Source: Paramacrobiotus metropolitanus
Lineage: Eukaryota; Tardigrada; Eutardigrada; Parachela; Macrobiotidae
Assembly (NCBI RefSeq): GCF_019649055.1
Contig: NW_026570298.1
Span: 124,001 to 188,000, forward strand
DNA length: 64,000 nt
Reading direction: 5' to 3'
In this document: positions 197 through 64,000 of the stretch, one piece after another
Numbering within the stretch: position 1 is the first letter of the stretch
Layout of the letters: the number at the start of each line of letters is the position of its first letter
Position numbers and translations under genes: made by a program
The notes under the pieces: model-generated
Told to the model about the DNA's origin: nothing
The model's input: only the letters and a program-made list of their open reading frames with translations
Databases searched by the model: none

Positions 197-2249
197 ATGC
201 TCATTTGCGGATTAAAATCCTTTGACATCCATCGAGTTAACCAGTGGAACTCGGTGGATGTGCTGACGGAGAGCGGTCTCTTCCAGCACGGCGAAGTGAT
301 CAACGTGGCGGAGAACGGTCTGATTGTGGATTTCCACTGCAGCGAGCAGCGATCACAGTTAGTCAGTTACGACAAAATTTTCACCGCTTCCGTTGCCCGG
401 TGTTCGGAGCCGTACCGCACGTGGCGCCAAGAACCCGATTTGACCCGCCTGGCAACGGAGAACGCCAGCGTGCAAGTGTTGTGGCGCCGGCATCCGGGTG
501 CTGCCTGGCTGTGGTATCCTGGCCGATTGCTCAGCAAGCCCATGATCTTCGAAACTATCGGCCTGGTGATTGCGACGGTGGAAGTGGATGGTTTGGGGCA
601 GATGGAACTGTTCCCCGTCGACCAGATGCGTTTTCCGCCGTCCGAGAGGCAGCTGGCCAGCCGAGCGCTTAATCCGCAAAGCTTCGGTGTACGTGAATGT
701 CGTTTGCCAGCGAATTACTGGTCGACGGTTACATCGGAATTAGAGAGCAGGTTCCGTCGTCGCATCGATACGACCCGACCTTTGCGTATTGTGTCCATTG
801 GCGGTCAAACGGTGGCGTTTCTGCAGCGACGATATGGGCAACCGTTGACGGAGGAAGAACTGGTGCGTTTTATTAATTTTGGTAATGTAAGGATTCTCTA
901 TTACAGAATCACATGTGAACTGCTCTTATCCAATCTACCAAAAGTGAAGAACACAAATAGAATTTTATTTACGAAAATAAATGCTTCTGTTGATTTTGCG
1001 TTTGATCTATCAACAGAAAAACGCGTACGAGATGACACTGGGGAGCGTTGCACAGTTGGAGGCCCCGGAGCAGGTCTACCAACACGAATCAGGCATGTCG
1101 TCCTTGGACACAACAAGAAAGCGCAAATACCCTGACGACGATGCGCAGTCGGAGACGGAATGTGTTTTACCCGTAGCAGCACACCTCTTGCGCGAGATCT
1201 TTGCCTCACTCGATGACGTCAGCTGTCTGCAACTGCGCCGCGTCTGTCCGCTGTGGAATGAAATCTTGACGGGCGCCGACAGCCATAAAACTGTACGTGT
1301 TTCCTTCGCACCGAACCCGTACTTCTCCATGGATTCGCCAGAATTGACCAGTGTCTACATGGCGGTCGGGGGGATGCTGCAGAGCATCGACCAGTCGACG
1401 GAACGGCTGATTGTCGAGCATGTCCGGGGCGAGTACGCGGAGGAAGTCGTGAGGGTAATTGGCCGGTTCATGCGCGGTGTCCACGTTCAACATCTCATCC
1501 TGCATCGTGTGACATTCCACTGGGATGATTGTATCTTCCGGGAGAGTGTCGGCAGTGACGGGCAGCTGATGATGGGAGTATGGTTTGCAGGCCGGTTGAG
1601 GTTTCGATATCTGTCGGCAGTTGTTGAGGGGTTGAAGGGTTTGGCTCCGTATTGCGGGGACTTGCGGCTGCGTCAGTGTGAATTCAGCTGCAGCGGACGG
1701 ATGAAGGCCATTATTCCGGATGCGATGATTATCCTGGATGTAGCGACGATTGAAACACAATGGTGGAACCTCTACGAGGCCCATTTGTCACGCGACGGAT
1801 TACATTTGCAGGAATTAGCCGAACGAATTCGCACAGGATCGGAAGAATTTCGCGAGATGGTGGCGCAGGTATACAACAAATAGCAGTGCCATGTTGACAA
1901 CGGTGGCAAACAATTTGCCACGCGGCCGGGATTTACGGTACTCTGTAGATAGTAGAACACTGTAAAACTCCTTGATGCTTGTGAAGTGTTACTACGGGTA
2001 GAGCATTGAAGCTGAGTCTGTTGTGTGATTTAAATTATAAATGGGAAACACGTATATAGGAAATCATGCAAATCGGAATGTGTTTGTCGCATGCAGATTC
2101 TGATGGATTGTCAGACGTTTGATCCGCGACCGACGACACGTTATGGTGTCCGCCAGTGGACGGTGGAGAATCTTGAGGATCTGGATGTGTCCCAGCTGAC
2201 CACCATTACACTGCGTGCCTTGAAGGAAATCCCTCCGGGAGGCGCTTGA
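197..2249 (+). CDS. TKF-1: Tudor/KH0-like + F-box protein, three exons, open
   Basis: Exons 197-862, 1017-1868 and 2097-2249 join in phase 0 into 556 aa. Donors are gtgcgt and gtatac; acceptors are caacag and atgcag. Residues 17-63 and 90-147 look like two Tudor/Agenet repeats (VDVLTESGLFQHGEV; VQVLWRRHPGAAWLWYPGRL). Residues 163-222 resemble the KH0 segment of FMRP (RECRLPANYW against its KLDVPEDL). A basic RKRK lies near 255 and an F-box spans 273-312 (LLREIFASLDDV..LQLRRVCPLW). A leucine-rich region follows, then the 50-aa terminal module. F-box proteins usually dock on Skp1 in SCF ubiquitin ligases; Tudor repeats bind methylated residues or RNA-protein partners. The start at 197 differs from the usual MHLY start of its paralogues. 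Exon limits come from comparison with the eight relatives; the Tudor/KH0 assignment is from remembered FMRP sequence. Confidence 0.8.
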
Positions 2250-3901
2250 CGATGAACATGGAAATCGCCGGGAAAAATAATGCCTGCGAACAGCTGCGCC
2301 AATCGCCGAAATGGGAAAGCCGAGAACCTTTTCAAGGTTCCTCTTTCGTTTGCCGCTTTCGCTGTGACTGGTACAGCAAATGATACGCTGTTGCGGTTTT
2401 AGTTAATTAATTCCTTTTACTTGTCAGTACTGAGTTCTTTTATTATTCGGACGTATGTGTCTAAAAGTGACAAAAAAGTTAGGATTTGTACGTCCTGCAG
2501 AAATGGTCTTTCTTTTTGTTTGAAATGGCTAATGTTACGAAATTAAAGCCAGTATGAATATAAATGGGACCAAGGGGTGTATCTTTGTTAAGTTTATCTT
2601 AACTGTTGCGTCGTAGCTGGTCGCTGCCGGCAGTCTGCACCGGGCAACGGTCTGGCTCGTTTTTGTTTTCGCAAGAGAAAGATCTAATAGGTAACTGCGA
2701 TATATTCGCGCTCATTATACGCGGACAGGGAAAGAATTTATGGTTAATTCACGAGAACTGAGAAGTGAAGAAAACAGTTAATAGCACAACAGCCTCGTTC
2801 GCCTCTAGTGGAGAGACAGCGCTAGTGGAACGACATCTGCTCAACGGTGGTCGAGTAGAAGCGAGATTTCGCATGCAGTTCGGTGGAGGGCCCGGACGTC
2901 ACGGTGAGTAGAGCACGGTATTTCCACTGGTTGACCATCACCAGCGCCGCGTACAAAGCCACGCAAATTAAGAAGGCATCCCGTGGGTGGCGGGTGATGT
3001 GGGGCGAAATGGGCGAAATTCGGCAGATTGGTGGTTGGGTTCCACTATTCGGCCGGACTGCCGAAGTCATGGCACGGTGGCCGGCTCATTTACCTTTCTG
3101 CCGAATCAACCCGTCCGCGTCAGTTGATTCAACATTCAGCAATGTCGCCGTTGAGTGCAATCATGTCCAGACTCCACAGTGAATTCACATGCCGCCAGGC
3201 AAATCGCTCTATCGCTCTAACCTCTATCGCTCTAATGTGCAGCCCATTTTTAAGATACTTACGCACATCAAAACCGTTTAAATTTTATTGTTTGAATATT
3301 TTTTATTTTTGCTTGACGTGTCACGTATGCCGCTTAGCATCATTCCCAAAACGCAGATTCGTCTAAAACTTTGAATTATTTATTAAACCCTGAATTATAT
3401 AATGCCGATTACATACTGCACAACTCCATTGACGGTATGCGCCAGGGCAGCCGCGCACGGACGGCAGTTCGTGAAAACCTGCGAGTGGTCGGAAGTCGCT
3501 GTTTCTGTCGCTAAGCATATGCTCGAAACAGTGACTTTAAATACTGCTCATCCAGCTAATGATCTGTTAGCAAAACCTAGACTATAACCAAACTGTACAG
3601 AAAAATGTGCTCTACAAGGAAATGTTAGCTGTCACATGGAAATCTGTGGCAGCAGTAACTTATTGCCGCCAGCGCATTGCACCATGAAATTCGGCATCAT
3701 AGATCTGGGTTATACTGCGCATCTGTAGTTTGCCCTGTTAGCGCTATGCTGAATTCTCTGTTGGTTAGACCACTCGTACAGCCAATGAGCGTGCTTGCAC
3801 CGGCACCGCCCCTCTACCGCATACCACAAATTGCGTTATGAATTATAATACTCGTACTCGTACAAGTTAAAATCGAATCTACTACTTGTACTAGTAAAAT
3901 A
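2250..3901. other. Intergenic, no gene assigned
   Basis: Between TKF-1 and the LINE. A minus-strand open stretch at 2822-3070 encodes one hydrophobic segment (near AFLICVALYAALVMV) that could be a receptor exon remnant, but no flanking exon was found. Nothing else is recognisable. Confidence 0.4.
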
Positions 3902-3926
3902 ATTATTATCAATGAAATTAATCATA
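3902..3926. repeat. Left target-site duplication of the LINE
   Basis: A 25-base string here is repeated exactly at 7909-7933. The two copies bracket the reverse-transcriptase element, so they are read as its target-site duplication. A length of 25 bases suits target-primed reverse transcription. Confidence 0.85.
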
Positions 3927-3955
3927 ATAATAAAAACACATAACTTAACCTATCA

Positions 3956-4650
3956 CAGGCCCGTCGCGAGACCCCTGTGCAATTTTCAAAAAAAAACTCC
4001 TCCTACAGTTTTTATCGGAAAATTTTTCTGAATACACCATTGGATTCGTCGTGAAATTCTGAACAAAACGGTTGAGGCCGATTTTTGAAATTCGCATTTC
4101 CCCCCAGATCGTTACTGCGGGCGGTCGCCAATGCGACAGCCCAGTTCTTGGGGCATTCCCCCCTGGCCCCCAAGGGCAGTCAAAGACACCTTCTCGAGCC
4201 ATTTTCAGCGATACAATTAGTATTTCAAGCGCAAATGGTTTCTCTATTTCTGAGGGGTCAGGGGGGAAAGCCCCAAAACTTGGGTTGTGACATAGGCGAC
4301 CGCCCGGGTGGACGTGCTTGGGGAGGAACGAATTTTGAAATTTGGCCTCAACCGTTTTGTTCAGAATTTTACGGCGAGTTCAGGAATGTTTTCAGAAAAA
4401 ATATGCGATAAAAACTGTAGAGTAATATATTTTTGAAAGTGCACGGGGGAATTCCCCAGAAGTCAGGCTGTCGAATTGGGGACCGCCCGTAGTGAGGGTC
4501 TAGGGGGAAATGTGAATTTCAAAAATCGGCCTCAACCGTTTTGTTCAGAATTTCACGACGAATCCAATGGTGTATTCAGAAAAATTTTCCGATGAAAACT
4601 GTAGGAGGAGTTTTTTTTGAAAATTGCACAGGGGTCTCGCGACGGGCCTG
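3956..4650. mobile_element. hAT-like MITE/foldback with 8-bp target duplication
   Basis: Ends are long inverted repeats of over 140 bases starting CAGGCCCGTCGCGAG. They are flanked by the exact 8-base duplication ACCTATCA (3948-3955 and 4651-4658). A third, diverged copy of the repeat lies inside at about 4330-4440. An 8-bp duplication with CAGG ends fits hAT elements. No transposase is present. It lies inside the 5' region of the LINE, so it either inserted after the LINE or travelled with it. Confidence 0.85.
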
Positions 4651-8290: not shown

Positions 8291-11130
8291 ATGCACCTTT
8301 ATCACGGACGTTATTTTGGTTACAATCCCGTGTTCCAGTGGAACTCGGTGGATGTGTAAACAGAGAACGGTCTCCTGCAGCACGGCGAAGTGATCGATAT
8401 GACGGAGAACGGCCTGATCGTGGATTTCCAATGCAGCGAACAGCGCTCGCTCTTCATCAGCTACGACAAGCTTTTTCTCCCTTCCCTGGACCGTTATGTC
8501 GTGATGCAGAAACATTATCACGAACAACTCCAGAGGATCCCCACGGCAGTACAAAATGCCAGCGTGCAGGTATTGTGTCGCCCGCACCCGGGTGCGGCAT
8601 GGTGCTGGTACCCGGGACGGTTGCTGCGGCGCCCGTTCTTCTTTCCCCACACAGGAAGCAGCTTGGTGTGGGCCGCCGTCGACGTGGAGGGTCGCCGCCT
8701 AACGGAACTGTTCTCCGCTGATCAGGTGCGCTTCCCGCGTTCCAAGCTGTGGCTGGCCCAACGAGCACTGCCGCCGGACTGCTTTGCTGTGCGAGAATGT
8801 CGCCTGCCCGATGGTTTCTGCCCGATGCCCGCCTCTAAGGCGTCTGATGGTCTACGTCGCCAACTGGAGAGGAAGGATGTTCGTGTTATAAGCATTCTGG
8901 GTGGTACCGTCAAGTACCTGCAGCGAAGGGACGCCGAAGCCTTCTCCGAAGAGGATGTGGTGCGTGCTACGATAATGTTCATCTGACTACAATACTGTAG
9001 AATGTAGATATGCACACCAGCTACAAAATTTCTACTGATTTCCGCGAATTAAATGCTGATGTATTGTAATGTTGTTATAATTCTAATAATTATTTTCTAA
9101 TATAATTCTAATAATTATTTTATTATAATTATTTTATTTTTATTTTTACTTTACACACTGATATTTTTGTTTTATTTTGGCGCTAAGCTATCCGGTATAA
9201 CCGGTGCAGTTGTCCATAGGAATTTTTGTCTGCTTTATAATTTATTTAATAATTTGCCGCTCTCGGCTTGAAAATTCTTAACCAGAATCTTAATCGTCCT
9301 AGTCGCCTAGAACTTTTCTTTGTTAATTTATTTAAAATCCTTTCTAAAAAATATTTGAATAATTAAACATAATTTTTATATTGTATTTTTTTCGCAGCAA
9401 CAAGTATGCGAATTAAATCAAAAAGCCTCCCAGCGCTTGCTCCATAACGAGCAGGAGAATCTCGGGCTAGATCAGGTGCATATTGGTACGGAAGCGACCA
9501 GAAAGCGCAAACACCCCGACGACGATGCCCAACCGGAAGTGGAGCGGGTGCTCCAACGGCACCGCATCTCTTGCTGGAGATCTTCCACTCGCTGGACAGC
9601 GTCATCCGCGAGAAGCTGCGTCGCGTGTGTCCGCTGTGGAATACCGTGCTGACCGGCGCCGACAGCGCGAAAACGGACCGTTTTCGGACCGGACCGTGTT
9701 TCCTTCCGGATGAACCCGTTCTTTCCACTGGAAGAGGAGGATTTCACCGACGTCTACGGCGCCGTGGCGGGCCTGCTGAAATGCACCACCGCCACCACGG
9801 AACGGGTTATTTTGGAGGATATGTACGCGGAACAGCTCGATAGTACATTTCTGGTGGTTAAATGGGTGCTGCGAAATACCCGGCTGAAACAACTGATATT
9901 CCATCATGTGGAGATGGACTGGGAGTTTAATTTCGGATATAAATACGGCGACAACGGTGTCGTTGCTGTGACGGAGGACGAGGTGGAAGAGGAAGGCAGG
10001 ATAGTGTTCCAGCGTCTAGCCAAGACGCTAAAAAGTTTAGCACCGTATTGCTGTGAACTTCGTCTGCAACGGTGTGAATTCACGTCTTTGGAGAAAATGA
10101 GCGCCGTTATTCCGCAGGCGACGGTAACACTCGATGCCCCGGATTTGGAGGCACAATTCCGGGATCTCTATGAGGCACATCTGTCTCGCGATGGAGTGGA
10201 TTTGGAGGAAATGGCGGAGTGGATTCGCACCGGATCGCAGGACGTTCGCGAAATGGTCGTGAAGGTAAAATTGCCAGCTACATTGGGGAACGGGATTTTG
10301 CTCATTTTTTTTCTTTTACTGGTGGTGTTTTAACTGAAACTCAGTGTAATAACTACGTGTATATTTGTACTTAGTTCGACTGCATTAGCACCGGAATTGA
10401 TTACAGTACTTAGTGCAATATTCATTTATCCAGATGCAAGTTGTTAAACAATTTATATTAAAAAATCCGTGAAGTATGGTTTTCTGATCTTGCCATACTG
10501 TGCCTACATGACCTTTTTTAATATCCTTCGATCGGTAACTCCACTGTCCCACTGGTTCATATCCTCCATGTGTGCCAGTCGACAGTTTTCTGTAGGTCTG
10601 GAAAATGTCTTTAAATAGTGTATTGCTGCTTAAATTTTCCTGGTGTGGATTTATGTTATTTTGTAGCTAGCGCTGTTAGCCACGCTTTCAGTACTGTAAG
10701 AGCCTATGATCTGCTTGATTATGATGTGGAAAGAAGCGTTCCCATTGGTCTATATTTTGCTCTGTAGCCCTGTTCCCACCCCGTCTTCTGGACTATGCAA
10801 GTCCAGCCGATGTATGTTGTAGCAAGAGAGATGACGAGAATTATTGCAGTGGCATATTAACGTTAGCGCGTACATTTCCCCGGCCGTTCCTCACCACAAT
10901 GACCCCAATTAATATTGCGTTGAACTGTACAGTATCTTAAGGACTGGCAAAGTCACGATCCCCGCTCCACGACGCCGTATCGTGGTCACGAATGGACACT
11001 GGACAACCTGAAGGATGTGGATGTGTCCAAGCTGACCACCCTCACGCTGCGGGCTTTGAAGGAACGCCTTCCCGTGGAAATGGAACGGAGCGAAGATGAA
11101 GAAGATAGCGACGTGGAACACGTGCAGTGA
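8291..11130 (+). pseudogene. TKF-2: broken Tudor/KH0-like + F-box gene
   Basis: All three exons are recognisable: 8291-8959, 9398-10264 and 10933-11130, with usable splice sites (gtgcgt; ttcgcag; gtaaaa; tacag). Exon 1 has a TAA at codon 23 (8357-8359) where paralogues have a Leu codon. Exon 2 lost one base near 9546, just before the F-box, and gained 16 bases (GACCGTTTTCGGACCG) near 9672-9690. The two changes cancel in frame, but the stretch between them runs into a stop at 9650-9652. Exon 3 is open (65 aa) with an acidic tail, SEDEEDSDVEH. The rest of exon 2 from about 9710 stays well conserved, so decay is recent or the first two exons are no longer under constraint. Confidence 0.85.
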
Positions 11131-12158: not shown

Positions 12159-12839
12159 ATGCACCTGTACAGAGAAAAGCATTGCCGATATCAACCCGTG
12201 CGTCAGTGGAACTCTGTGGATGTGCTGACGGAGAGCGGACTGTTCCAGCACGGTGAAGTGATCAACGTGGCGGAGAACGGGCTGATCGTGGATTTCCACT
12301 GCAGCGGACAGCGCTCGCTCTTCGTCAGCTACGATAAGATCTTCGACGCTGCCAGCTCCCCGTTTTCCGAGGTATACGAAAACTGGCATCATGAACTGCA
12401 GTGGAATCCCGCGCTGACGGAGAATGCCAGCGTGCAGGTGTTGTGTCGCCCGCACCCGGGCGCTGCGTGGCTATGGTACCCTGCGCGTCTCCTGCATCGC
12501 GCCTTCTTCTTCCCCTTCGACGACATCGGGCTGGTGTGGGCCGCCGTCGACGTGGGCGGTCGGCAGCTGACGGAACTGTTCACCGCTGATCAGGTGCGCT
12601 GCCCCCCAGCCGTACCACTGGAGACCCCAGGACCAGGGGCACTGCCGCCTGGCTGCTTTGCAGTGCGCGAATGCCATCTTCCAGTTGATTTCTTGTCTCT
12701 CACCACGTTTCCGTCCTCCGACCGTTTCCTTCAACTGCTGGAGACGCGAAAAAGGGCCATCCGGGTGCTGGCCATACGTGGTGATTCACTGCAGTATCTG
12801 CAGCGAACTGAAGCTAAACCGATGAGCGACGGAGAAGTG
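12159..12839 (+). CDS. TKF-3 exon 1: Tudor pair and KH0-like segment
   Basis: Open 227-aa exon from ATG (MHLYREKHCRYQ) to a strong donor GTGAGT at 12840. It carries both Tudor/Agenet-like repeats and the KH0-like end (CFAVRECHLPVDF). The only downstream family exon 2 before the next gene is at 21326, so the first intron is inferred to be 8.5 kb long and filled with transposon debris. Phases agree (0/0). With exons 2 and 3 the protein would be 563 aa. The link is not proven by sequence alone; exon 1 could be an orphan and exon 2 the remainder of another copy. Confidence 0.75.
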
Positions 12840-14080
12840 GTGAGTGTATTACTTATAATGTTATTAGACAGTAATCTGAGTAATGATTTAGTTTCAATTA
12901 ATCGTGTGTCTGTGACTCGTGTTTATGCCAGTGTAGTGTTCACTCTCCGCAGACTGCGAAGGATTTGCGCACATCACAGGGTTGAACGATGATTTTTATT
13001 TTGCCGTGGTATTACTAAACTATTCCATATTATTTCTACTTCACTACTTCAGTTTTTAAATTTCTCATTTTTTGTAAAATTAATTCCGTCTTTGAATCTC
13101 ATTCGAAGTAACATCTCACATTAATGTGGCATTTTAAATCTGTCATCTATGACTTCGTTTTCCAGTTTTACATTTTCAGTAAGTACTTGTATGTATAATG
13201 TATGTTTGACGTTTTCCCACCGGAAACAGAACACAAGCAATAAGATTTATAAGACACTCACCAGGGCACGTTCCTTCGCTATAAATTCAGAAAAATCTCG
13301 TTTTATGCAGAAAAATAGGAGAACTAAAGTAAGTAGGTTGCTTAAAAAATTATTTCATGTGCCATGGTAAATAGGGCGAGGCGCCGCGGTCTAACAAAAA
13401 AATCGCTTGCTGCTGCGTTGTGCCAACTGTATTAATGTACAACGTCAGTATCTGCATTGTGATACGATTTATTGTGATGCGTTGTTATATGGTTCTCTCG
13501 CTGTTGTTCGCAGTTGTCCCTGGTTCTTCCGCTATTGTTCGCTGGGGGGGGGGCGCTATTGTTCTCCCCGAGGGCAACGTTTTGCGACAGTTCCGATTTC
13601 CGAATTTCGTAAATTTTATAAAAGGATTTTTAACCTTTTTCCCGGGAGGGGGAGGGGTGCCCCCCCTCCTCACATAGCAAATATTAAACTGCCACGATAA
13701 TAAAAAAAGTCTGAGAAAAGCAGAAATTCATATGGGAATAAATTCAAAAAAGTCTACAAAAATTTAAACTGGATTTTAGTTTTACTGCTTTTAGATTTTT
13801 TTAATCAAAATTTGCTAGAATACCTGTCCGATGCTCATATAATTGGAATATTCCACCATTCCCTGGTCTTGGTATCATGGCCGATTCCTTTACAGTTTAA
13901 TCAAACAGTTATCGCCCTGGATAATTCGAACCAGAAGAAATTCTGTCTCTTATCACGATATGAAGTCCCAGAAGGCAAAGAAAGCAAACAGAAAAGGTTC
14001 ATTCTTAAAAAAAGCTGATGAAGTCTGAGGATGGAGAAGAGCCATACGAGCATAGGAGTATGGCTGTCCATGCATGGAAG
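12840..14080. other. Start of TKF-3 intron 1, no gene
   Basis: AT-rich DNA with a G run near 13545 and a CCCGGGAGGGGGAGGGG stretch near 13640. No coding signal was recognised. Confidence 0.4.
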
Positions 14081-14089
14081 CGATTGGCT

Positions 14090-14733
14090 GCCTCATCTAC
14101 ATTTCATCCATTTCACGCCCAGATATTACATACGCAGTGAATCGCCGGGCGTCGTTCGGGAAGAAGCTGGGATCCGACCACTGAACCGCCGTTAAACGGG
14201 TAATGCGTTACTTGAAGCAACACTGAGCTTATCATTAACGTATCGTACAGAACACATGAAGTTGGACGGTTACTGCGACTCGGACTGGGGCGACGATATG
14301 GAAGAACGGAAATCTACTTCCGGATACGTGTTCACTCTGGAAGGCGGATCTGTTGCGTGGAGTTCGAAATTAAAGAAAGTGAAGGCATTCTCCGCAACGG
14401 ACGCTGAATACATGTTACTGGCCGAGGCAAATAAACAAAACGAGTGGAGTAGAATGTTTTTGGATGCGCTCGGAGTGGACAAGACCAAGGCCACCCAGAT
14501 GTATGTTGATAATCAAGGCGCGATTGCCTTGTCGAAAGATCACGAATTCCATAAGTGGGCGAAACATGTCAGAATTCGCTACCATAAAATCCGGCAGGAA
14601 ACGAAAGCTAGATCGATTGAGGTGAGCTATATTCCAACGGAGTCGAAATCCATCGGCCATGCTGACGAAGGCGCTCGGGACGATCAAGGTCAAGTTCATC
14701 ACCGGACTTCACGGGTTGCTTGGAATGAATGAC
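14090..14733 (+). mobile_element. Ty1/copia retrotransposon fossil (end of pol)
   Basis: The readable part is a copia-type RNase H: GYCDSDWG, RKSTSGYVF, DAEYMLL, DNQGAIAL and KHVRIRYH motifs in order at 14256-14650. Before it lies the RT-to-RNase H connection (PDITYAVN, VKRVMRYLKQH), and after it the end of pol. The copy is old and broken, with several breaks. No LTR was identified on either side, so only the 3' part of pol remains. Confidence 0.85.
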
Positions 14734-14739
14734 CACGGA

Positions 14740-15333
14740 CAACGTGACCGGGGAGGAGGCGCGATGCAAAGATTCTTGCTTACAGCAAGCAGATGGATAA
14801 ATTACGAGCTAAAATTACAGATATTGAGAAGAAGTTCATATTGTATAATGACCCAAATTCATTTCGCATGATGATCCTGGATTCCTATCAAATCAGTAAT
14901 CAGTGCTCCATTTCGAAGGCGCAAGACTCCATTGTCCGATGATCAGCAACAGTTTAACGAAGACGTGAGCAGGTCCACAATTGTGTGGAATGGGGATTCG
15001 ATAAAATTGTTCATCAAAATGCATTCGTTAATTTTTCAAAAAAACCTGACAGTAGTAAAGCAGCCAGTGGGTAAATACTTTTTAGTTGCTGTACTGGTTA
15101 CAAATTGTCGTACGGTCACACCACACTTTACGGTAGTCAGACAGGATTGTAATTTGAAGTAGATCCAATATCTTTTAAGGAGTATTTCAGGAATGTAAAA
15201 TTTTAATTTTAATTGGGTGCAAAAGAGGCCTGTGCAGATGTTGACGTTTCTGCATCGATACCGAGGATTTTATTATACAAACCGGAAGTCAGAAAGTTTT
15301 CTGTGTAGAACCCCATACAAAAATTACATATAT
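14740..15333. other. Intronic DNA, nothing recognised
   Basis: No protein family, RNA gene or clear repeat seen between the copia fossil and the piggyBac left end. Confidence 0.4.
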
Positions 15334-15766
15334 TTAACCCAGGAAAATCGGGTACTAGAAGGGATGGGACTACGGTTTTGAAAATTTGCAGTCTGGGATA
15401 AAAAAATTTAATTAAAAGAAAAACATTTTTTCACAATTTTAGCGACCATAGGTCAAGCGGGAGATGACCATGTGGAAATAGCACGCAGGGAAACCATGTT
15501 TAGCCGACATGTTATCTCTTAACGTTTATAACAATAGTTACAAAAATCACAGAGGATACGACAATAGCTCAAACAATAGGTCTCAACGAGTACTTAAAAC
15601 AAAAGCATTGTGATGGTCATCGTAATGACCATTGGTCAAGAGAAAAATAAAAAAGTGCAGAAATACAGATTGCAACCGGCACAGTCGTTTCATCACACAA
15701 ACAGTCAGTGGAAAATGAGAAAAAACTGGAAACCATTTTCCAGGGAAGAAAATCAAGTTTCATACT

Positions 15767-17745
15767 TTACGTTTGTGGTATAACGGGGAGCAGGCCTTGT
15801 GCAAACGGACATTGAACTTCCCGCACTTCTGTCAAGCTGAACTTCGCCGGCAGTATTTGCAGTGGCCTCGCTTGCATTTTTCCACAATGTGATTGATCCT
15901 GCCAAACCGGACAGTGCTGGTCACTGGTGTTGAAGGTCCAAGACGAGCCGGCTTTTGCAGTCCCGTCAGAAGCAACCCTTCGACGACTACCGATAAAAAC
16001 TGCATCTGTGTCAGGTTTCCGCCTACCTCTCTGTGAATACGCCACGCTGCTACAGTCATCAGAGAAATCGAGTTGGCAAAGAATGGCCACCACCACTTCT
16101 TCGTCCGAATCATCGGACGGTAATCCCTGATGAACCTGTCGCATAAATCCACACCGCCCATGTACTTGTGATAGCTGCCGATCATTTTTGGCTGGTCAAT
16201 GTTGACGTGATTTTTCACCGATGCGTTTTATCGTCTTGCTTTCCCTAGTGGCGCGACAGTCTCGCAGTTTGAGGCCAGACAAACTGGAGTATTGTCGTGC
16301 CACTTAACGGTGACCACATCCAGCGGAGAAAACGTTGCGTGATGGCCACTCACGGTCTTTTTGCAACCTTTGTTATCCGGAAATGGGCAATGCAGCAGAC
16401 GGTTTTCGCGTACAGTGCCGGTAGCTTTGAAATTGAGTTGTCGTAATTCAACAAGCAAGTTGTACGAAGTAAAGTTATCGAAGTACAATGTATGGAATTC
16501 AGGATGGTCAACTTTCTCGATCAAAGACAGAACCACTCTTAAGCCAAGAGGTATCAGGTTAGGTGTACCTTCCTTTCCGGTGTATGCCGCAAGGGAGAAT
16601 GGATAGCCACTTGCTCCGCAAATCACCCACAGCTTACATCCAAATCGGCATGTCCGAAGTATGGGATCATTTGTTCGTCCACGCTGAGGTTCGATTCAAA
16701 CCATCCAAACTGCAGTAACCTCTTCTTCAAAATCGCCAAGAATGGATTGACCTTGCCAGCTTATCACCTTGCAACAGGTTTTTGTTCTCAGCCAGATGAA
16801 GGAATTTTTATTTCCTACAATGAAAGTACGGTGATTGAATACTGTATTATATACTAAACTTTTCATTTTCCAAAAGTTTCCCCCCTTGGGAAAACACCAC
16901 CACCGCCAAAATACTAAGTGTTTCGCAAAATTTTCTTCTGATTTATATTCCTCCCATTTTTAGCAACAAATTGTCTGCTGGACCGGAAGTACGAATTCTG
17001 GCTCGTTATGGAGTTATTTAGGAAAACCCCCTGGAGGGAATTTTTGCAACTGGACATACCTCAAAGCGGGTTCGGGATATCTTTGTCGAAACGCAGGGGA
17101 ACTCAAACCATGCTGACCACATCCAATAATGTCGCTGTGATGGCAGTTTCACAATGCCGCTGTAAATCAGAGTTCCCACAAAAATGCGTAGTTCTTCCGG
17201 CGACAAGGTAAAGTTGGCGTTCTTCTGGGCAGCGTAGAGTTCAGATTCTCTTATGATTCATTCCGAAACTTCTCCATCGAAATACATGTTGAACAGCTCC
17301 AGAGGTGTACCTGAAATCAACTCAGGGTGTGCATTTGCCAGTTTGACAGGAACGTTGTTGGGATCATTGTACATTGGCAGAAAGTTCGTTTCCCCATTCG
17401 CCCATGGCACTTCGGGCCGGCCACGGGCCGCACCTGTTGAAACCATCTGAAATATCGCCAGATTTTTGTGAAAATTTAATGGCTACGTACCTTTTCGCTT
17501 CTTAGACGGCTGTTCGGGTGCACACGGCTGGTCGTCGGTATCGCTGTCGTAGCAGACTTCATGCTCTCCCGAAACATCGGTAGGAAGCTGCGGGCTCAGG
17601 TCGTTGTCATCGATGTCTTCTTCGTCGGAGCAGCTAGCAACATCCGGTGGCAGGCAGACAATGTCAACTTCGCCATGTGGTATAGTTGCCAAATCTTACA
17701 AGATGTTTTGGGCTTCACGCAACGTTCTTGCTCGTGTTTGAGGCA
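15767..17745 (-). pseudogene. piggyBac-like transposase, decayed
   Basis: Read on the minus strand, the pieces run in piggyBac order. An acidic N-terminus with KKRK lies at 17483-17692. A short intron follows (donor GTACGT, acceptor TTTCAG, about 17450-17495). Then come LRIFVGTLIYSGIV (about 17190), SVDEQMIPYFG (about 16690, first catalytic Asp), LYFDNFTSYNLL (about 16480, second Asp), MGGVDLCDRF (about 16150, third Asp) and a C-terminal Cys-rich segment (GHCKYC). All three Asp motifs survive, but frame changes and stops (for example near 16228 and at the VSCG break near 16635) make it non-functional. The 16760-17010 stretch no longer aligns to the family by eye. Confidence 0.8.
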
Positions 17746-45020: not shown

Positions 45021-48000
45021 ATGCATCTTTACGGAGGAAAACGCTTTGCCTATGTCAGTTCTCCGGTGTACCAGTGGAACTCGGTGGATGTGTTGACGGA
45101 GAGCGGACTCTTCCAGCACGGTGAAGTGATCAATGTTGCGGAGAACGGGCTGATCGTGGATTTCCACTGCAGCGAACAGCGCGCACAGTTGGTCAGCCAC
45201 GACAAAACCTTCTACGCTTTCGTTGCCCCATGCTCCGCGGGTTACCGAGATTGGCGTGACGAACTGCGGCGGAACCCCGCAGTGACGGAAAACGCCAGTG
45301 TGCAGCTGCTGTGTCGAGCGGATCCGGGCGCTGCGTGGCTGTGGTACCCGGGTCGCCTTGCCAGCAAGTCCATGTTTTTTTCCTATGGCAACATCGGCCT
45401 GGTTGTCGCGGAGGTTCAAATAGAAGGACAACAACAAACGGAACTGTTCCCCGTCGAGCAGGTTCGTTTTCCGCTGTTTGCGGCAGATCTCGTCGGATGC
45501 TACCGGATGCCTTCGTGTTGCGGGAGTGTCGTTTGCCGGAGAATTATGAGTCGACCGTCCCGCCGGGAATGACTGCTGGCTTTCGTGGGCGCATTGAAGC
45601 CACGCTGCGTGCGCGTGTTGTGGCGGTTCTCCGCCAGACGTTTACGTATCTCCAGCGAGGGGATAGACCACCAGTCAGGGAAGAGAAAGTGGTACGTTAG
45701 GAATTGTTTTACATTATAAAATAAAACTGTAACTTATAAGTACGAATAAAAAGTGCTCAAAATACCGTCCGTGGGCTGCAATGAATGAGCGAAACAGCCG
45801 CATGCATGCCTCTTAATGTTTCCTGCCATTTGATAATTCCGTTTGAGTAATTTCTGCTGCTATATCGTCTGTAGAACTAAAAATTGATAGTTTTCTGCAT
45901 ATGCTTGAAATCATAAAATTAGAAATTACGTTTTTTTATAGGGTACCCTTATAGGCACCCCTAAAACCCCTGTTTATTGTAGGCACCCCTTCTCACACCC
46001 CGTTTATTATAGGCACCCTTTTTTGAATTAAAAGTTAAAATAATATTATGTGAAAGGAATATAATTCACATATTCCAAAAAATTATTTTATCATTTTATA
46101 TTAAGTACAAGATCTATACTACGCGCGGCGCCCCATAGTTTTGAGATCTCTATAACCATAAAACTTCTGGAAAAACGGACAACGCCATTAGATCCGGGAT
46201 AGTTCAGAAGTGGCCGGCATGTGCTTTTTTATGAAAATATCGAGCCGGTATCAAGCCGGCATCAAGACCAGATTGATCCAACCCATCTTAAAGGTCACCT
46301 TGAAACTTAGAAATATTTGCCTAGATACAATACAAAATACCAATTGACATAATTATCACACTAATTAAACCGAAAAATAAATAAATTATTGTACTTATTC
46401 GAACACTCGCGTTATTCAAACATTGTTGCCGAGCTCGAAACACGTTTAAAATCAACCGATATAAAATATAAAAATATCAAATATAAAATCAATACGAAAA
46501 ATCACTGGACGAGTGAGTGACCGAAACACTATCACCGACCACTGAGCGGAATCTCTAGATGAGTGGGTGACCGAGCTACCACCACTGACCAGTAAGAAAA
46601 ATCCCTAGACAAGTGAGTGACCGAAACACTATTACTGCCCACTGAGCGGAATTTCTACTAGGTGAGTGAGTCATCGAGCGGGCTTTGCTCTTGCTCACCT
46701 AACGGGCTCTGTGCACTGGACAGTAGTTGTAGCAGGGTCACATCCTCACCTAGCGATTTTTCTCCTTACCTAGCGATATTTCTTACTGGACAGGTTGAGC
46801 TCGGTCAGTCACTCACCTAGTGATTGAGTGCGTCAAAAAATCGCTAGGTGAGTACGTGACCGAGCTACCACCACTGTCCGGTGCCCAGAACCCGTTAGGT
46901 GAAAGAGTACCGAGCTACCACTACTGTCCAGTGCACGAACTCCGTTAAATGATCTAATGAGCGAGCTAGCACTACTGTCCAGCGCATAAACTCCGTTAAG
47001 TGATCTAGTGACCGAGTTACCAGTACTGTCCTTTGCATAGATCCCGTTATATTAGGTAGGTGGGTGACCGAGCTGCCATAGCTATCCAGTGCACAGAGCC
47101 CGTTAGGTGAACGTATGACCAAACTGTATTACTGAGCAAAATAGAGCAGGGCCTGCTAAGTTCTTAATGGGTGACCTATCTAGCACCACTGTCCAGTCTT
47201 AGCGTCCTTTTAGTTTGTAATGTGATACTCTCGTGGGTGATTTGATTCGGATGGGTTTTCGCTAAGAAAATTTAAAAAAAATGATCTGTAAAGTCAAAGT
47301 AATTGCGTTCGACTGCACGAAACCAAAACATCCATTTTTTAATAAAATTTTTGTTATCGGGCTCTTCAGATTTATCCGTTCTAAGTTAACAATCCGTAAA
47401 CCGGCCAAGGAGTTTAGAACCCAAGAAACGCGGAGGCGAAGCCGAGGCTGTTTCTTGTAGTTGCTATGACCGTAAAAACTTACTTTGGACAAAAGGTCAT
47501 TGTAATATGGTTATCAAGGAAATCAAGGAAAAGATCTATATTACAGCGGAATACCCCGTACGATCTGGTCAGAACAAACCACAAAATCAATCGAAAAACT
47601 GCTAACGCCATTCGATTCAGCACGTCTGGAAACTGTGTCACATGCATTTTGTTTTGGTGTTATCCGCTCCGGCTCCCGTGCACAGGCGCCGGTGCCGGTA
47701 GAGCTGCAAACTCAAGGCGATCTTGAAAACCATTTCAGAGTCCTGTTGCATGGAGCAAAAAATCAGCTACTAGAATGTTACTAAATAAGTGTAAATTTTG
47801 TTCTCAGTTCTGATTTCTAGGCAAGCATTGACAGTAGACATTCACTTCGTTTACTTTCTTTTTCCTTTATGTTTAACAGAATGAGGCGTACGAGATGGCC
47901 GTCGGAACCGTTAGAGTCAGAAACCCCAACAGCCTCGAAGTGCAGTCCGAAGGGGGGTGTCTGTTGCCAGCGGAGAATCACCTCTTACGCGCGATCTTCC

Positions 48001-49074
48001 AGTCATTGGATAGCGTCAGCCGCACGAAGCTGCGTCGCGTGTGTCCGCTGTGGAATGCCGTCCTGACCGGCGCCGACTGTGGCAAAACCGTGCGCATTTC
48101 CTTCGCAGCCAGTCCGTTCTCCCCCATCCAGGCGGGGAATTTCGGCAGGGCGTACGGCGCTGTCGGTGGGATGCTCAAGTGCGTTAATAATTCGACGGAA
48201 CGCCTGATCATCGAGCATCTGCGTGGCGCGCACGTGGAGAGTGTTATGACAGTGATTCGGTGGATACTGCGGCATGTCCGAATTAAACAACTGGTTTTTC
48301 ATCGCGTGGTATTCAACTGGGTTAGTAGTGCTCTATCAGAAGATGTTGGGGAGGAGGCGATGATGCTGCCACCGGTGGGTGTCCGCCGTCTGGCGGTAGG
48401 CCTCCGCGGCTTGGCGCCATTCTGCGATGAACTGCGGATGCGGCAGTGTGAATTCAACTGCACTGCACGGATGAAGGCCGTTATTCCGCCGGTGAGGATT
48501 CAGCTGGAAGCAGCGGATATTGAAGCGCAGTTCTGGGATTTGTACGAGGCGAACCTGTCCCGCGACGGACTGAATGTGGAGGAAATGGCCGAGTGGATTC
48601 GCAGCGGATCGGAACAACTTCGCACCATGGTTGCTCAGGTAAAATCCGTTCAACGAGTGAATGATAACCTGAACTGGGACGACGTTTCTATGCAGTCAGA
48701 ATTTATGGTATTCATCGCGAAGTAAAATTTGCCTGGCTTGAAAGGTGTCAGTTCTGCCGGACTTGAAACCCATAACGGAATTACATTACTGTCGATTAAA
48801 TCCTAGAATTATATCGCATTTTATTATTTGATCGAAAAATGAATGCATGTCAGTCAAAGTTGCTGTCTTGTAGTCTGTGGAAGACTGGCAAAGTCACGAT
48901 CCGCGATTGACAACGCAGTATCGAGGTTATACGTGGACGGTAGAGAATCTCCATCAGCTGGATGTTTCCAAGCTGACCACCATGACGATGCGTGCTTTGA
49001 AAGATATTCTCCCCGCCGATTATGCATTTTTGCAACGTGGGGACGAGGACGATGAAATTGTCGAAGATCACTGA
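45021..49074 (+). CDS. TKF-7: Tudor/KH0-like + F-box gene, frameshift in exon 1
   Basis: Exon 1 45021-45691 (start MHLYGGKRFAYVSSPVYQWN, donor gtacgt) is open through both Tudor-like repeats. It lost seven bases near 45495-45505 (FPLFAADLVG then AFVLRECRLPENY in another frame), so its length is not a multiple of three. Exons 2 (47880-48638, 253 aa, acceptor TTTAACAG, donor gtaaaa) and 3 (48874-49074, 66 aa, acceptor CTTGTAG) are open. Exon 2 lacks the RKRKHPDD linker seen in other members and goes straight to LLPAENHLLRAIFQSLDSVS. The tail of exon 3 is acidic (RGDEDDEIVEDH). Intron 1 is 2.2 kb and includes a minisatellite. Either a recent pseudogene, a gene that uses exons 2-3 without exon 1, or a sequencing error. 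Confidence 0.7.
46490..47210. repeat. Degenerate minisatellite in TKF-7 intron 1
   Basis: Units of about 60 bases with GTGACCGAGCTACCACCACTGTCC and CCGTTAGGTGA cores. Orientation changes around 46670-46800, where the complement (TTGCTCTTGCTCACCTAACGGG) appears. Confidence 0.7.
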
Positions 49075-51970: not shown

Positions 51971-54735
51971 ATGTTCCTCTATGAAAACAAGTCCGTTGCA
52001 TGTCATCCTGTTTACCAGTGGAATTCGGTGGATCTGTTAACGGAGAACGGTCTCTTTCAGCACGGTGAAGTGATCGACGTGGCGGAGAACGGTCTTATCG
52101 TGGATTTTCGCTGCAGCGGACAGCGAGCGCAGTTCGTCAACTACGATAACATTTTTCTCGGTTCGCTCATCCCGTGTTGCGCGGGATACTCCCACTGCAA
52201 CGACGAATTGCGGCGCCATCCCAAGGCGACGGAGAACGCCCGCGTGGAAGTACTGTGTCGCTCACAGCCGGGTGCTGCGTGGCTGTGGTATCCTGGCCGA
52301 CTTCTCAGTGAAGTCAGGTCCTTCCTGATGCAAGGCATCCCTTTGGTGATCGCTGAATGGGAGCGCACAGACGGATTTGTTCCCCGACGAGCAAGTGCGT
52401 TCGCCGCCGTCGAAGAAGGATCTGGATCAACGAGCTGTGCAGCCGTGGGATTTCGCTTTGCGAGAGTGTCCTTTGCCGGCGAATTATTGGTCGACCATCA
52501 CGTCTGCGATTGAAAATCGCTTTCGTGAGGAAATTGAAACGAGAAAGATGGTCCGAGTTGTGTCGGTGCTCAGCGGAGTGCTCAAGTATGTGCAGCACAG
52601 TGGCCAGGAACCGCTGACTCAACACGAGCTAGTAAGTAATCGTGACTCCTGAGATTCGGTGTGTAATTCGATGCGCCTCAAAGATAGACGGTCATTTAAC
52701 GTCAGTGTAGAACTGTAGATACTATACACACACACGCAAACAGCCTCACTTATGGTTATGACTCACTTGGTCCGGACAGGGAGACATTGTAGGGGGTGTC
52801 AACAAGTAATTTTTTTCGAATTTGACTCGCCCGTTTTATCCCTAATAGCTCCCCTGTCGAAGTTTGATACCCCTCTTGGCAACAATATTACGCGCTGCTT
52901 TGTTAGGGGATTAGCAGTGCATCGTGTATCTGCAGTGCGTCACTGAGGAAGGGCACTCGTACTCGTATTGATTAACTGTGATCAAATATTATTATCAATA
53001 TTATCATACTTCGAAGTACTTTTAACAAGACACATAAAGTTTATTGAACAATATACATAAGTTTAATGAACAAGGTACATTTAGTTTATTGATGCTTGAT
53101 TAAGTTTTGATGTTGTAAAAACTGCTGTTTTCAAGTATTGCATAAGACGTTGGTTGGTCCTCAGGTGAATAAAGAATACAGTCATTATACAGACACATTC
53201 AACTTCTTATTAGTTTTAATTTTCTTAACAGAAATCCGCGTACGACCGGACCTGTTTGAACGCTCCCCGGCTGAGGAATGACAAACAGGGCGTCTTCGGC
53301 CTGTTATCTCTCAACCCCACGAGAAAACGCAAACACCCTGGCGCCTTTGCGCAGTTGGGAGTGAGAGGTCGCATTCCTACGGAGACGCATCTGCTGCGCG
53401 AGATTTTCCTGTCACTGGATAGCGTCAGCGGTGTGAAACTGCGTCGTGTATGTCCGCTGTGGAATTTCGTCCTGACCGGCACGGACAGCGGTAAACTTGC
53501 CCGTATTTCCTTCGGGGCCACTCCCTTATTCCCACCGAAAGTGGAGTTCTTCGAAACCGTGTACGGCGCTGTCAGTGGGATGCTGAAATGCACCAATCAG
53601 ACAACCGAACGACTGATCGTCGAGAATCTGCCGCACGAGTACACGGATTGTGCGTTGACGCTGATTCGCTGGATGCTACGGAATATCCGCATTAAACAGC
53701 TTATCTTCTCTAACGTGGAATTCAGTTGGGATTACTATGACCTAGAAGAGAGCCTCGTTGATGTGCCGATTAAAAGGTTGTTGGGAAACGGCAGCTTTGC
53801 TGGTATCCGCCAACTGACGGGGTCTCTGAAGGCCTTGGCGCCGGTCTGTGGTGAACTGCGGATCCGGGGATGCGAATTCAGCTGTTATCGACGAATGAAA
53901 GCGACGGTTGCGTATGCTACAATAAAACTGGACTCCGCAGACGTTGAATCGCAATTCTGGGAGCTCTACGATAAGAATTTGTCCCGCGACGGAGTGAGTT
54001 GGGAGGAAACAGCCGAGTGGATTCGCACAGGATCGCAACGCCTTCGCAAGATGGTGGCTCAGGTAAGAACTGTAAAACAGTGCAGCACCATGTTTTTTTC
54101 ATTTACTGGCATTTGCAGAAAAGATTTGAAATAATTGGATCGGGATCGATTTGTTACTCTTGTCGTACACTCGGAAACGGCATTTTTTAATACTCGTTTG
54201 TGCTTACATATTTTGGGAAATTAGAGTAAATGTATCGTTGCTTTGCCTTAACTGCTTCTAACTCCACATGCTGGTTGTGATCGCTTATTCGCTTGAACTG
54301 CAGGCATCGTTACTAAACACAGAATGTCTCGAACTGAGATACGATTTGGATTACTATTTAAATGAAGGTCTTATTTTACTTGAAGTGTGTGCAACTGTAT
54401 GTATGTGGTGTTTCGTGCAGTATGTGACGGATTTTCAAGGCTGTGATCCGCGGTTGACGACGCATTATCGTGGCTGTAAGTGGACGGTGGACAGTCTGAA
54501 CGATCTGGATGTCTCCAAGCTGACCACCATCACGCTTCGGTCGTTGAAACAAGTTCCTAGAAATCTGGAATATTTGGCTGAAACGGACAGCTTTGAAGAT
54601 GACGATGACATCCAGCAGGAGGATGACACCGAAGACGATGAAGACACGGAACATGATGAAGACACGGAACATGATGAAGACGTCGAACATGATGAAGATG
54701 TCGAAAATGCTGAAGACGAGCAAGTCAGCGAGTGA
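51971..54735 (+). CDS. TKF-8: Tudor/KH0-like + F-box gene with acidic repeat tail, frameshift in exon 1
   Basis: Exon 1 51971-52631 (start MFLYENKSVACHPVYQWNS, donor gtaagt) lacks eleven bases near 52358 compared with TKF-9 (EWELNGCTQTDVFPAEQ becomes EWERTDGF). The KH0-like part then reads in another frame (FALRECPLPANYW). Exon 2 53232-54062 (277 aa, acceptor CTTAACAG, donor gtaaga) is open, with TRKRKHPGAFAQ and the F-box LLREIFLSLDSVSGVKLRRVCPLW. Exon 3 54421-54735 (104 aa, acceptor CGTGCAG) is the longest in the array because it ends in tandem EHDEDTEHDEDVEHDEDV repeats. Such acidic tails often mediate charged protein contacts. Without the eleven bases the full protein cannot be made from exon 1 in frame. 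Confidence 0.7.
54583..54735 (+). repeat. Coding microsatellite, acidic tail of TKF-8
   Basis: Head-to-tail 18-base units (GATGAAGACACGGAACAT) in frame, each encoding DEDTEH or DEDVEH. Five to six copies, slightly diverged. Confidence 0.8.
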
Positions 54736-56488: not shown

Positions 56489-58564
56489 ATGTTCCTGTAC
56501 GAAGAAAAAGGCGTTGCATGCCATCCCGTGTACCAGTGGAATTCCGTGGAAGTGCTAACAAAGAGCGGTCTTTTTCAGCACGGTGAAGTGATCGACGTGC
56601 TGGAGAACGGTCTCATAGTGGACTTCCGCTGTAGCGGACAGCGAGCGCTGTTCGTCAACCGCGACAATATCTTTCTCGGTTCCCTCATCCCGTGTTGCGC
56701 GGGATACTCTCATTGCAACGACGCAATGCGGCGCCATCCCAAGGCGACGGAGAACGCCCCGCGTGGAGATACTGTGTCGCTCACAGCCGGGTGCTGCGTG
56801 GCTGTGGTATCCTGGCCGACTTATCAGTGAGGTCAGGTCCTTCCTGATGCAAGGCATCCGTCTGGTGATCGCGGAATGGGAACTGAATGGTTGCACACAG
56901 ACGGATGTGTTCCCCGCTGAGCAAGTGCGTTTGCCGCCGTCCAAGGCCGATCTGGATCAACGAGCGCTGCAGTCGTCGGATTTCGTCGTACGAGAGTGTC
57001 GTTTACCGGAGAATTATTGGTCTACCGTTACGTCTATGACAGAAAAGCGCTTTCGTGAAGAAATTGAAACGAGAAAGATGGTGCGTGTTGTGTCGGTGCT
57101 CAGTGAAGTGCTCAAGTATGTGCAGCATAGCGGCCCGCCGCCGCTGACAAAAGACGACCTAGTAAGTATCGTGACTCGTGAGATTCGGGTGTATACTGTG
57201 TACGTACTTCCATTAGTCCAATGTGCCTCAAGTTCAATTATGGATGGACTATTTTGAACACCACTATATGCGCACAAACAGCCTCTCTTATAGCTCAGTC
57301 TGTTCCAGCAGAAGGGTGGTTTAAAACCAAGGGTGGTTTTAAACCAGTATTTTTTTGAATTTGACCCTTATTTTCCTAATAGCTTTTGTGCCGTGTTAAA
57401 ACCTGGATAATTCTTAAATAGGTTATGACACCGCGTGACAGATTGTTCAACATACAGAGTACAAAGTGCAAACTGCTGGAATTAACGCTGCCCGGCAGTC
57501 AATTTAGGGCTGAGTCAGTTTTCACTTTTCTCCAGTTTTCGGGAACAAGTGAGCCCGCTGTCAGAATATGACAGCACTCTTGCCAACGATACTACGCGGT
57601 GTTATGTTGATTGTTAGGATCGGTAGTTGTTGGGATCAGTGGGTGTTGAGACCAGTAGTGCGTCATGTAGTGCGTCGCTGAGGAAGGGTACTCGTACAGT
57701 AGACTCAGACTTTATATAAGGCACACTGGAGTTCTTAATAGTATTCATTTGGAGCAGGAATCCATGTACGACTGGACCAGTTTTGGCCCTCCGCGGCTAA
57801 AGAGCATGTCATCTTTTAACCCTACGAGAAAACGCAAACACCCAGGTGCAATCGCGCAATTGGGAGTGAGAGGTCGTATACCTGCAGAGACGCATCTCCT
57901 GCGGGAGATTTTCCAGTCATTGGATAGCGTCAGCCGTGTGCAACTGCGTCGTGTGTGTCCGCTATGGAATTTTGTCTTAACCGGCACGGACAGCGGCAAA
58001 GTTGTCCGTATTTCCTTCGGGTCCACTCCGTTATTCCCAACGGAAGTGGAGTTTTTTGAAACTCTGTACGCCGCTGTCAGTGGGATGCTCAAATGCATAA
58101 ATCAGTCAACCGAGAGACTGATTATCGAGAATCTGCCGCACCAGCACACGGACTGCGCACTGACGCTCATTCGCTGGATGCTACGGAATATCCACATAAA
58201 GTAGCTTATCTGTTCTGATGTGGAATTCAACTGGGAGGACTTTTACCCCTACGACATGGCGGCTTTTGGGCCGTTGGGTACTGTGGGCTGTGCCGGTATC
58301 CGTTGTCTGGCGCGGTCTTTCCAGGCCTTGGCGCCGTTCTGTACGGAACTGCGGATGCGCGGATGTCAGTTCAACTGCTATGAACGGACGAAAGCGAAGA
58401 TTGCGGATGCTACCATTAAACTGAATGCAGTCACTGCAGTGCATGTTGAAGCGCAGTTCTGGCAGCTTTACGACGCCCATCTGTCCGGCGATGGAGTGAA
58501 TGTGGAGGAAACCGCCGAATGGATCCGCACAGGATCGGAACGGCTTCGCGAGCTGGTCGCTCAG
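56489..58564 (+). pseudogene. TKF-9 exons 1-2: Tudor/KH0-like + F-box gene, broken
   Basis: Exon 1 56489-57161 (start MFLYEEKGVACHPVYQWNS, donor gtaagt) has one extra C near 56757 (GCCCCG against GCCCG in TKF-8). The second Tudor-like repeat and KH0-like part (FVVRECRLPENYW) are therefore in another frame. Exon 2 57758-58564 (269 codons, acceptor GGAGCAG, donor gtgaaa) has a TAG at 58202-58204 where relatives read KQLIF. The F-box (LLREIFQSLDSVSRVQLRRVCPLW) lies before the stop and the leucine-rich remainder after it. Exon 3 is probably the partial exon at the end of the window. Very close to TKF-8, so both arose from a late duplication. Confidence 0.75.
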
Positions 58565-63705: not shown

Positions 63706-63737
63706 TGATAAATTTTGTGGTACCTTCTCGATTGTTT

Positions 63738-63875
63738 CAGCGGGGGGCTGCGCCCCCCGCACCCCCTGCTTATTGGGGCTCCGCCCCAAACCCCGGCCAG
63801 GGGCCTCGCCCCTGCACCCCGGGGACCCAGCTCTCCGCGTGACGCACTACAACTTAAAAACGCTCGCTCGCTTCG
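63738..63875. repeat. GC-rich stacked palindromes
   Basis: GCGGGGGGCTGCGCCCCCCGC, GGGGCTCCGCCCC and GGGGCCTCGCCCC follow one another, then a CGCTCGCTTCGCTCGCTCGC stretch. Each can fold on itself. Base composition is far from that of the neighbourhood. Confidence 0.7.
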
Positions 63876-63959
63876 CTCGCTCGCTTGATTATGTAGATCA
63901 GTAGATATAATTTATCATAAAGGTCTGCTGATGCTTGAAGCATATGGTGTCTTACGCAG

Positions 63960-64000
63960 TGTGTGACGCGTGTCCAAAGCTATGATCCGCGTTTAACGAC
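63960..64000 (+). CDS. TKF terminal exon (exon 3), cut by window end, probably TKF-9
   Basis: After an acceptor TTACGCAG the frame reads CVTRVQSYDPRLTT, matching YVTDFQGCDPRLTT at the start of TKF-8 exon 3. As the only family exon 3 after the TKF-9 exon 2, it is taken to be its last exon, which makes intron 2 about 5.4 kb with the satellite inside. It could instead belong to a further copy. Confidence 0.75.

Follow-up and report, generated by a model that had tools for sequence, protein, structure and literature searches.

A tandem array of three-exon F-box genes with a putative FXR-like tandem-Tudor module in the tardigrade Paramacrobiotus metropolitanus

A 64,000-nucleotide stretch of the Paramacrobiotus metropolitanus genome (contig NW_026570298.1, positions 124,001 to 188,000; the window, whose own coordinates are used throughout) holds nine copies, C1 to C9, of one gene family, running from position 197 to the end of the window. 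Nine clustered copies had been proposed in the original prediction, which was made from the sequence without database searches, and this count is borne out. Our preferred interpretation, in which we place somewhat better than even confidence, is that these genes form a three-exon family of adaptors for SCF (Skp1–cullin–F-box) complexes, perhaps nuclear, that carry an FXR-like tandem-Tudor reader and evolve by duplication and decay. The F-box and the three exons are plain; an FXR-like tandem Tudor in exon 1 is supported but not proven.

All of the array copies lie on the plus strand except for one inverted piece of C6 (42546–42656). Exon 1 is common to all nine copies, and an F-box-type exon 2 is present in eight, C4 being without it. 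Exon 1 of C3 and of C1 is 74 and 52% identical to that of C5, and the exon-2 rows share 46–72% identity. The reading frame is open throughout only in C1, C3 and C5 (556, 563 and 562 amino acids), and the models of these three have phase-0 junctions with GT donors and CAG acceptors. The remaining six of the nine copies are broken. In C2, exon 1 is interrupted by a stop, and exon 2 contains a frameshifted stretch that includes another. C4 consists of exon 1 alone, with a stop (neither exon 2 nor exon 3 was found for it), and C6 consists of fragments. Exon 1 carries a frameshift in each of C7, C8 and C9, and exon 2 of C9 has a stop as well. Duplication, transposon insertion and decay shape the cluster, with three copies intact and six broken. 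The nine functional adaptors originally envisaged are too many, because only C1, C3 and C5 are intact. Similarity also extends beyond the exons, at 22847–23298, 41197–41395 and 44319–44759, downstream of C3, C5 and C6 (67–68% where C6 is one of the pair), which suggests that the flanks were duplicated along with these units.

The genes have three exons. The first two are as previously described, while a conserved third had been missed. Protein similarity in exon 2 stops at a common GT donor, CAG/GTAAG-like in most copies, and a third exon was therefore sought and found. It is present in six copies (C1, C2, C3, C5, C7 and C8), and a seventh, in C9, begins near position 63942 and leaves the window. 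Exon 3 is 50–57 residues long in the intact copies and has 19 invariant columns across the six rows, among which there is no convincing Pfam family (best E = 0.56). The tail of C8 exon 3 is lengthened by an acidic 18-bp repeat (54625–54717); the remaining copies end sooner past the conserved part.

The F-box of exon 2 is confirmed by Pfam. Against the PF00646 cut-off of 20.5 bits, three of the five copies tested lie above it (C3 25.5, C5 23.7 and C1 22.1 bits) and two below (C7 19.6 and C8 13.0 bits), and at E up to 10 the model is matched by six of the eight exon-2 rows. It stands where FXR proteins would have KH1 and KH2, as had been proposed; Pfam gives no KH match in the six exon-3 or the eight exon-2 rows. 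The description of exon 2 as leucine-rich fares less evenly. Beyond the F-box, strands and helices alternate in the predicted model of exon 2 (mean predicted local distance difference test score, pLDDT, 60.8), and by eye this fits leucine-rich repeats (LRRs), but neither Pfam nor the fold search supports them. No LRR family is among the Pfam matches of the eight exon-2 rows. The fold search with the model gave nothing at E up to 0.001, and the best 50 of its 730 matches are mostly barrel enzymes, with no F-box protein by title among those 50. An exon-2 profile gave no match among PDB chain sequences. An RKRK motif precedes the F-box in C1, C2, C3, C5, C8 and C9; it is altered in C6 and absent from C7. 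The motif hints that the protein may work in the nucleus. Across the Pfam scans of the family, those of exon 1 included, matches to Adenovirus E1B, lactamase, queuosine-salvage, FAM167, holin, linocin, C19orf84 and DUF6745, each in one row and either below cut-off or with E of at least 0.016, were taken as chance.

Exon 1 was compared directly with FXR using hhalign, with an exon-1 profile including the start of exon 2 as query and a profile of four FXR sequences as target. The alignment scores 30.66 (P = 0.00087) and places residues 20–153 on FMRP 6–119, colinear over both Tudors. None of 300 column shuffles reaches this score (best 24.47), and the reversed and exon-2 controls score 11.4 and 14.8. 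A three-sequence version of the FXR profile gives P = 0.0019. When sequences were tested singly, those of Drosophila FMR1 (P = 0.003) and human FMRP (P = 0.12) were both colinear with exon 1; those of SPIN1 (P = 0.11), 53BP1 (0.41), UHRF1 (0.43) and SMN (0.73) matched over 9–25 columns only. Taken alone, the Tudor 1 segment gives P = 0.00027 over 33 columns; Tudor 2 gives P = 0.018, but in an alignment with the end of FXR Tudor 1. In global alignment (observed score 13.58), shuffling one segment at a time reaches the observed score in 1 of 150 trials for Tudor 1 and 0 of 150 for Tudor 2, where the best score is 10.99. When 916 six-frame open reading frames (ORFs) of at least 40 amino acids were searched with an FXR hidden Markov model, seven exon-1 ORFs ranked first (E = 0.0067–0.34), with two more at ranks 10 and 20; in the six alignments listed of the top seven, all fall in Tudor 1 in one register. 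Since the exon-1 ORFs are paralogues, this ranking counts as one piece of evidence. On these comparisons homology of the tandem-Tudor part of exon 1 to FXR appears moderately supported; most of the case comes from Tudor 1, and Tudor 2 adds weakly to it.

FXR also emerges from undirected searches. A Pfam scan of 14 exon-1 rows against 24,736 models returned five families, all weak and in one row each: DUF6745 (E = 0.016), holin (0.13), linocin (0.14), Tudor_FRX1 (0.15) and C19orf84 (0.17). Tudor_FRX1 is the sole Tudor-type match, and it fell unprompted, in one of the 14 rows, on C9 residues 20–49, the segment earlier named Tudor 1. In the predicted model of exon 1, which is of low confidence, strands lie at 18–57 and 91–142, as expected of two barrels. 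A Foldseek search with this model against 350,542 chains placed the N-termini of FXR1, FMRP and FXR2 at ranks 1, 2, 4–9 and 12 (E = 0.04–0.16). The predominance of FXR in this ranking is suggestive; it is not proof, because a model of low confidence may be misleading and Foldseek also takes amino acids into account.

The residues that hold the two FXR Tudors together are kept in part. PMC2970552 describes in FXR1 an ionic lock, E6–R47/E65–R112, a contact F14–W78, and a methyl-lysine pocket in Tudor 2 formed by Y95, W97, V66 and E104. By our count its numbering is one lower than that of FMRP as aligned here, and W97 could not be placed. The equivalents of W79 and R113 are kept in all nine copies, F15 in seven of eight, and an acid at E7 in six of seven readable copies. 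The pocket valine is kept in six of nine copies, and the pocket glutamate is E in five and D in two of the seven readable ones.

Selection has acted unevenly along the genes. Constraint is highest in Tudor 1, strong in Tudor 2, the F-box and exon 3, and there is none in the inter-Tudor linker. Between C5 and C3 the non-synonymous and synonymous divergences (dN/dS, given as pairs) are 0.04/0.31 for Tudor 1, 0.22/0.22 for the linker, 0.08/0.60 for Tudor 2, 0.27/0.57 for the third segment, 0.28/0.41 for the head of exon 2, 0.14/0.69 for the F-box, 0.18/0.68 for the rest of exon 2 and 0.09/0.45 for exon 3. The corresponding C5–C1 values are 0.05/0.70 (Tudor 1), 0.59/0.62 (linker), 0.29/1.53 (Tudor 2), 0.67/1.16 (third segment), 0.26/1.58 (F-box) and 0.26/0.61 (exon 3). 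Tudor 2 and the F-box are similarly constrained, and the whole-exon C5–C3 ratios are 0.32, 0.31 and 0.26 for exons 1, 2 and 3. Two constrained blocks joined by a free linker are the pattern that two folded domains would leave. Exon-1 rows C7b, C4b, C6a and C6b, all of C6 exon 2 and the front of C2 exon 2 were left out of this analysis; pairs of fewer than 40 codons are not listed and the last exon-1 pairs are not included.

A number of observations weigh against an FXR-derived reader, and they bear on two other readings of exon 1. It is possible, though we consider it unlikely, that exon 1 is a tandem Tudor of the wider Royal family that is FXR-like by convergence or belongs to an unsampled family, the protein being an F-box adaptor without FXR ancestry. 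By P, FMRP alone is not ahead of SPIN1, and each decoy was represented by one sequence against the four of the FXR profile. R48 of the ionic lock is kept in none of the nine copies and E66 is Q in seven of them, and the pocket tyrosine is V in six of seven readable copies and W in C9 (the Y96 and R48 positions were mapped partly by eye, and hhalign puts Y96 one residue earlier, on an A in C5). Half of the lock is not kept, nor, for the most part, is the FXR methyl-lysine pocket; the interface is partly retained, and methyl-lysine binding of the FXR kind seems doubtful. The Foldseek list mixes in the tandem Tudors of BAHCC1 (ranks 3 and 10) and UHRF1, none of its matches attains E = 0.001, and TM-scores for the FXR rows are 0.15–0.19 by query and 0.19–0.29 by target, with root-mean-square deviations of 12–21 Å. 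In Pfam, Tudor_FRX1 ranks fourth of the five weak matches, at 12.5 bits against a cut-off of 25.9. Searches of viral and prokaryotic contig collections gave no relative outside the window. Yet FXR chains occupy most of the top Foldseek ranks, the only Tudor-type family that Pfam returned is the FXR model itself, and 53BP1, UHRF1, SPIN1 and SMN, each as a single sequence only, gave no colinear profile match.

The third segment also favours that Royal-family reading. It had been taken for a KH0 domain, which is unsupported, because the segment alone gives P = 0.87 and shuffling it reaches the observed global score in 57 of 150 trials. The sole point for KH0 is the F-x7-P spacing after Tudor 2, which is present in all nine copies as in FMRP and would fit such a domain. 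Of the proposed FXR link, then, the tandem-Tudor part has moderate support from Pfam, Foldseek and hhalign, and the KH0 part is not supported.

It is improbable that exon 1 is an unrelated β-rich domain in which a short stretch of the first segment matches FXR by chance. The top local signal is indeed confined to the 33 columns in Tudor 1, and shuffling Tudor 2 barely lowers the local score (median 29.81, compared with 30.66), so that nearly all of the local signal lies in Tudor 1. Profile searches of PDB sequences with exon-1 alignments found no FXR chain up to E = 10; alignments A1 and A3 gave four and one matches, at E = 0.44 or worse, none of them FXR. AlphaFold models exon 1 poorly (mean pLDDT 39.3, predicted TM-score 0.31). 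On whether exon 1 has some other fold or family, as could have refuted the original idea, a model with a pLDDT of 39 is too poor to settle the fold, and the profile searches of the PDB are without FXR. Against a chance match in one segment stand the Tudor-2 shuffles, which reach the observed score in 0 of 150 global trials and 1 of 150 local ones, and the fold search, which favours FXR. Six broken copies and the transposon remains inside and between copies might imply that a formerly working family is dying out here and no longer functions; this is very improbable given three frames open over 556–563 codons with sound splice sites and C3–C5 dN/dS ratios of 0.26–0.32 across the three exons, though the latter reflect past rather than present constraint.

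How would an FXR-like SCF adaptor work? F-boxes bind Skp1. The exon-2 F-box would dock on Skp1 and thereby on the cullin, the tandem-Tudor module of exon 1, most like the FMRP/FXR N-terminus, would act as the reader that recruits a modified or ribonucleoprotein (RNP)-associated protein, and the region after the F-box together with exon 3 may provide a second contact surface. The family is presumably expressed, and the recruited protein would be its substrate for ubiquitination, perhaps in the nucleus.

The family is filed as a variant of the F-box adaptors and not as a member of the FXR family. With the N-terminal tandem Tudor of FMRP, FXR1 and FXR2 (PDB 4qvz, 4ova, 3kuf and 3h8z) it shares a pair of Tudor-like segments that agree in order and register, equivalents of F15, W79 and R113 that are mostly or always kept, and the F-x7-P spacing. 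In contrast to FMRP/FXR it has no supported KH0 and no KH match in exons 2 and 3, the F-box following instead; its inter-Tudor linker is longer, and its pocket tyrosine is mostly V. KDM2A and KDM2B (FBXL10/11) join chromatin readers to an F-box and LRRs, using JmjC, CXXC and PHD domains rather than Tudor. UHRF1 is a RING-type ligase, not an F-box adaptor. Both animals and plants show repeated expansions of F-box families, in which it is usually the portion beyond the F-box that faces the substrate. UHRF1 resembles the present family in outline, as a tandem-Tudor reader coupled to ubiquitin transfer (PMC2970552), but its tandem Tudor is not colinear with exon 1. The FBA2/FTH expansions of Caenorhabditis are likewise lineage-specific animal F-box expansions with a divergent associated region; 'Tudor' is absent from the main text of that survey (PMC8665587), whereas in the window constraint is strongest in the N-terminal Tudor 1.

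The novelty of the Tudor and F-box combination is provisional, and the combination would be unfamiliar if confirmed. No Tudor–F-box family appeared in searches of the open-licence PMC literature, as judged by titles and the starts of abstracts. A 2025 study of F-box innovation that screened 10 million eukaryotic proteins (PMC12062965) contains none of the terms Tudor, FMRP, KH domain or Agenet in its main text. Because constraint peaks in the first half of the N-terminal tandem-Tudor-like module, the family would link the ubiquitin system to a defined reader. Should the FXR origin hold, the fragile-X reader would have been re-used outside an RNA-binding protein, and the family would offer a handle on what that reader binds. 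Binding by the FXR reader is still weakly defined, at 0.4–1 mM for histone peptides (PMC2970552). A bolder version, which we hold to be rather unlikely, is that the FXR tandem-Tudor module was captured in an animal lineage, where it became joined to an F-box and the fusion then multiplied, giving SCF adaptors whose FXR-type reader marks FXR partners or FXR proteins for destruction; if true, FXR-type recognition of RNPs or chromatin would lead directly to proteolysis.

Table 1. Positions of the nine copies and of their exons and segments in the window
Feature	Position	Strand	Remark
C1, whole copy	197..2249	+	
C1 exon 1	197..862	+	two Tudor-like segments and third segment; intact
C1 exon 2	1017..1868	+	F-box 22.1 bits
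C1 exon 3 with stop	2097..2249	+	
C2, whole copy	8291..11130	+	
C2 exon 1	8291..8959	+	internal stop
C2 exon 2	9398..10264	+	F-box part: frameshifted stretch with stop
C2 exon 3	10933..11130	+	
C3, whole copy	12159..22798	+	
C3 exon 1	12159..12839	+	intact
C3 exon 2	21326..22171	+	F-box 25.5 bits
C3 exon 3 with stop	22634..22798	+	
C4, whole copy (exon 1)	23540..24109	+	internal stop
C5, whole copy	38185..41068	+	
C5 exon 1	38185..38850	+	intact
C5 Tudor-1-like segment	38236..38370	+	residues 18–62
C5 Tudor-2-like segment	38449..38640	+	residues 89–152
C5 third segment	38656..38850	+	residues 158–222; proposed KH0-like, unsupported as KH0
C5 exon 2	39543..40391	+	
C5 RKRK basic motif	39645..39656	+	like a nuclear localization signal by eye
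C5 F-box	39711..39800	+	Pfam PF00646 match, exon-2 residues 57–86
C5 exon 3 with stop	40895..41068	+	
C6, whole copy (remnant)	42546..44192	+	exon-1 pieces (42546–42656 inverted), broken exon-2 pieces
C7, whole copy	45021..49074	+	
C7 exon 1	45021..45694	+	frameshift
C7 exon 2	47880..48638	+	F-box 19.6 bits, slightly under cut-off
C7 exon 3	48874..49074	+	
C8, whole copy	51971..54735	+	
C8 exon 1	51971..52631	+	frameshift
C8 exon 2	53232..54062	+	F-box 13.0 bits, under cut-off
C8 exon 3	54421..54735	+	acidic repeat tail
C9, whole copy	56489 to beyond 64000	+	
C9 exon 1	56489..57161	+	frameshift
C9 exon 2	57758..58564	+	one stop
C9 exon 3, start only	63942..64000	+	runs beyond window

The window has a G+C content of 45%, and in it there is no tRNA and no Rfam match at gathering scores. 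On the minus strand, between C4 and C5, two related ORFs at 26093–27226 and 30224–30718 (32% identity over 167 amino acids, E = 2e-24) have many hydrophobic stretches; by eye they are like gustatory receptors, with no Pfam match at 0.01. Mobile elements and repeats lie inside and between the copies. A 976-codon open frame of the long interspersed nuclear element type at 4904–7834, between C1 and C2, encodes a reverse transcriptase (RVT_1, E = 5e-14) and has a zinc-finger-like start by eye. Intron 1 of C3, of ~8.5 kb, contains a transposase remnant, a piggyBac-type fragment on the minus strand at 16228–16695 (DDE_Tnp_1_7, E = 2e-15), and at 14196–14732 there is by eye a copia-like RNase H remnant, with no Pfam match at 0.01. 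Around ten copies of a 122-bp satellite unit occupy 62488–63699, in the putative 5.4-kb intron 2 of C9.

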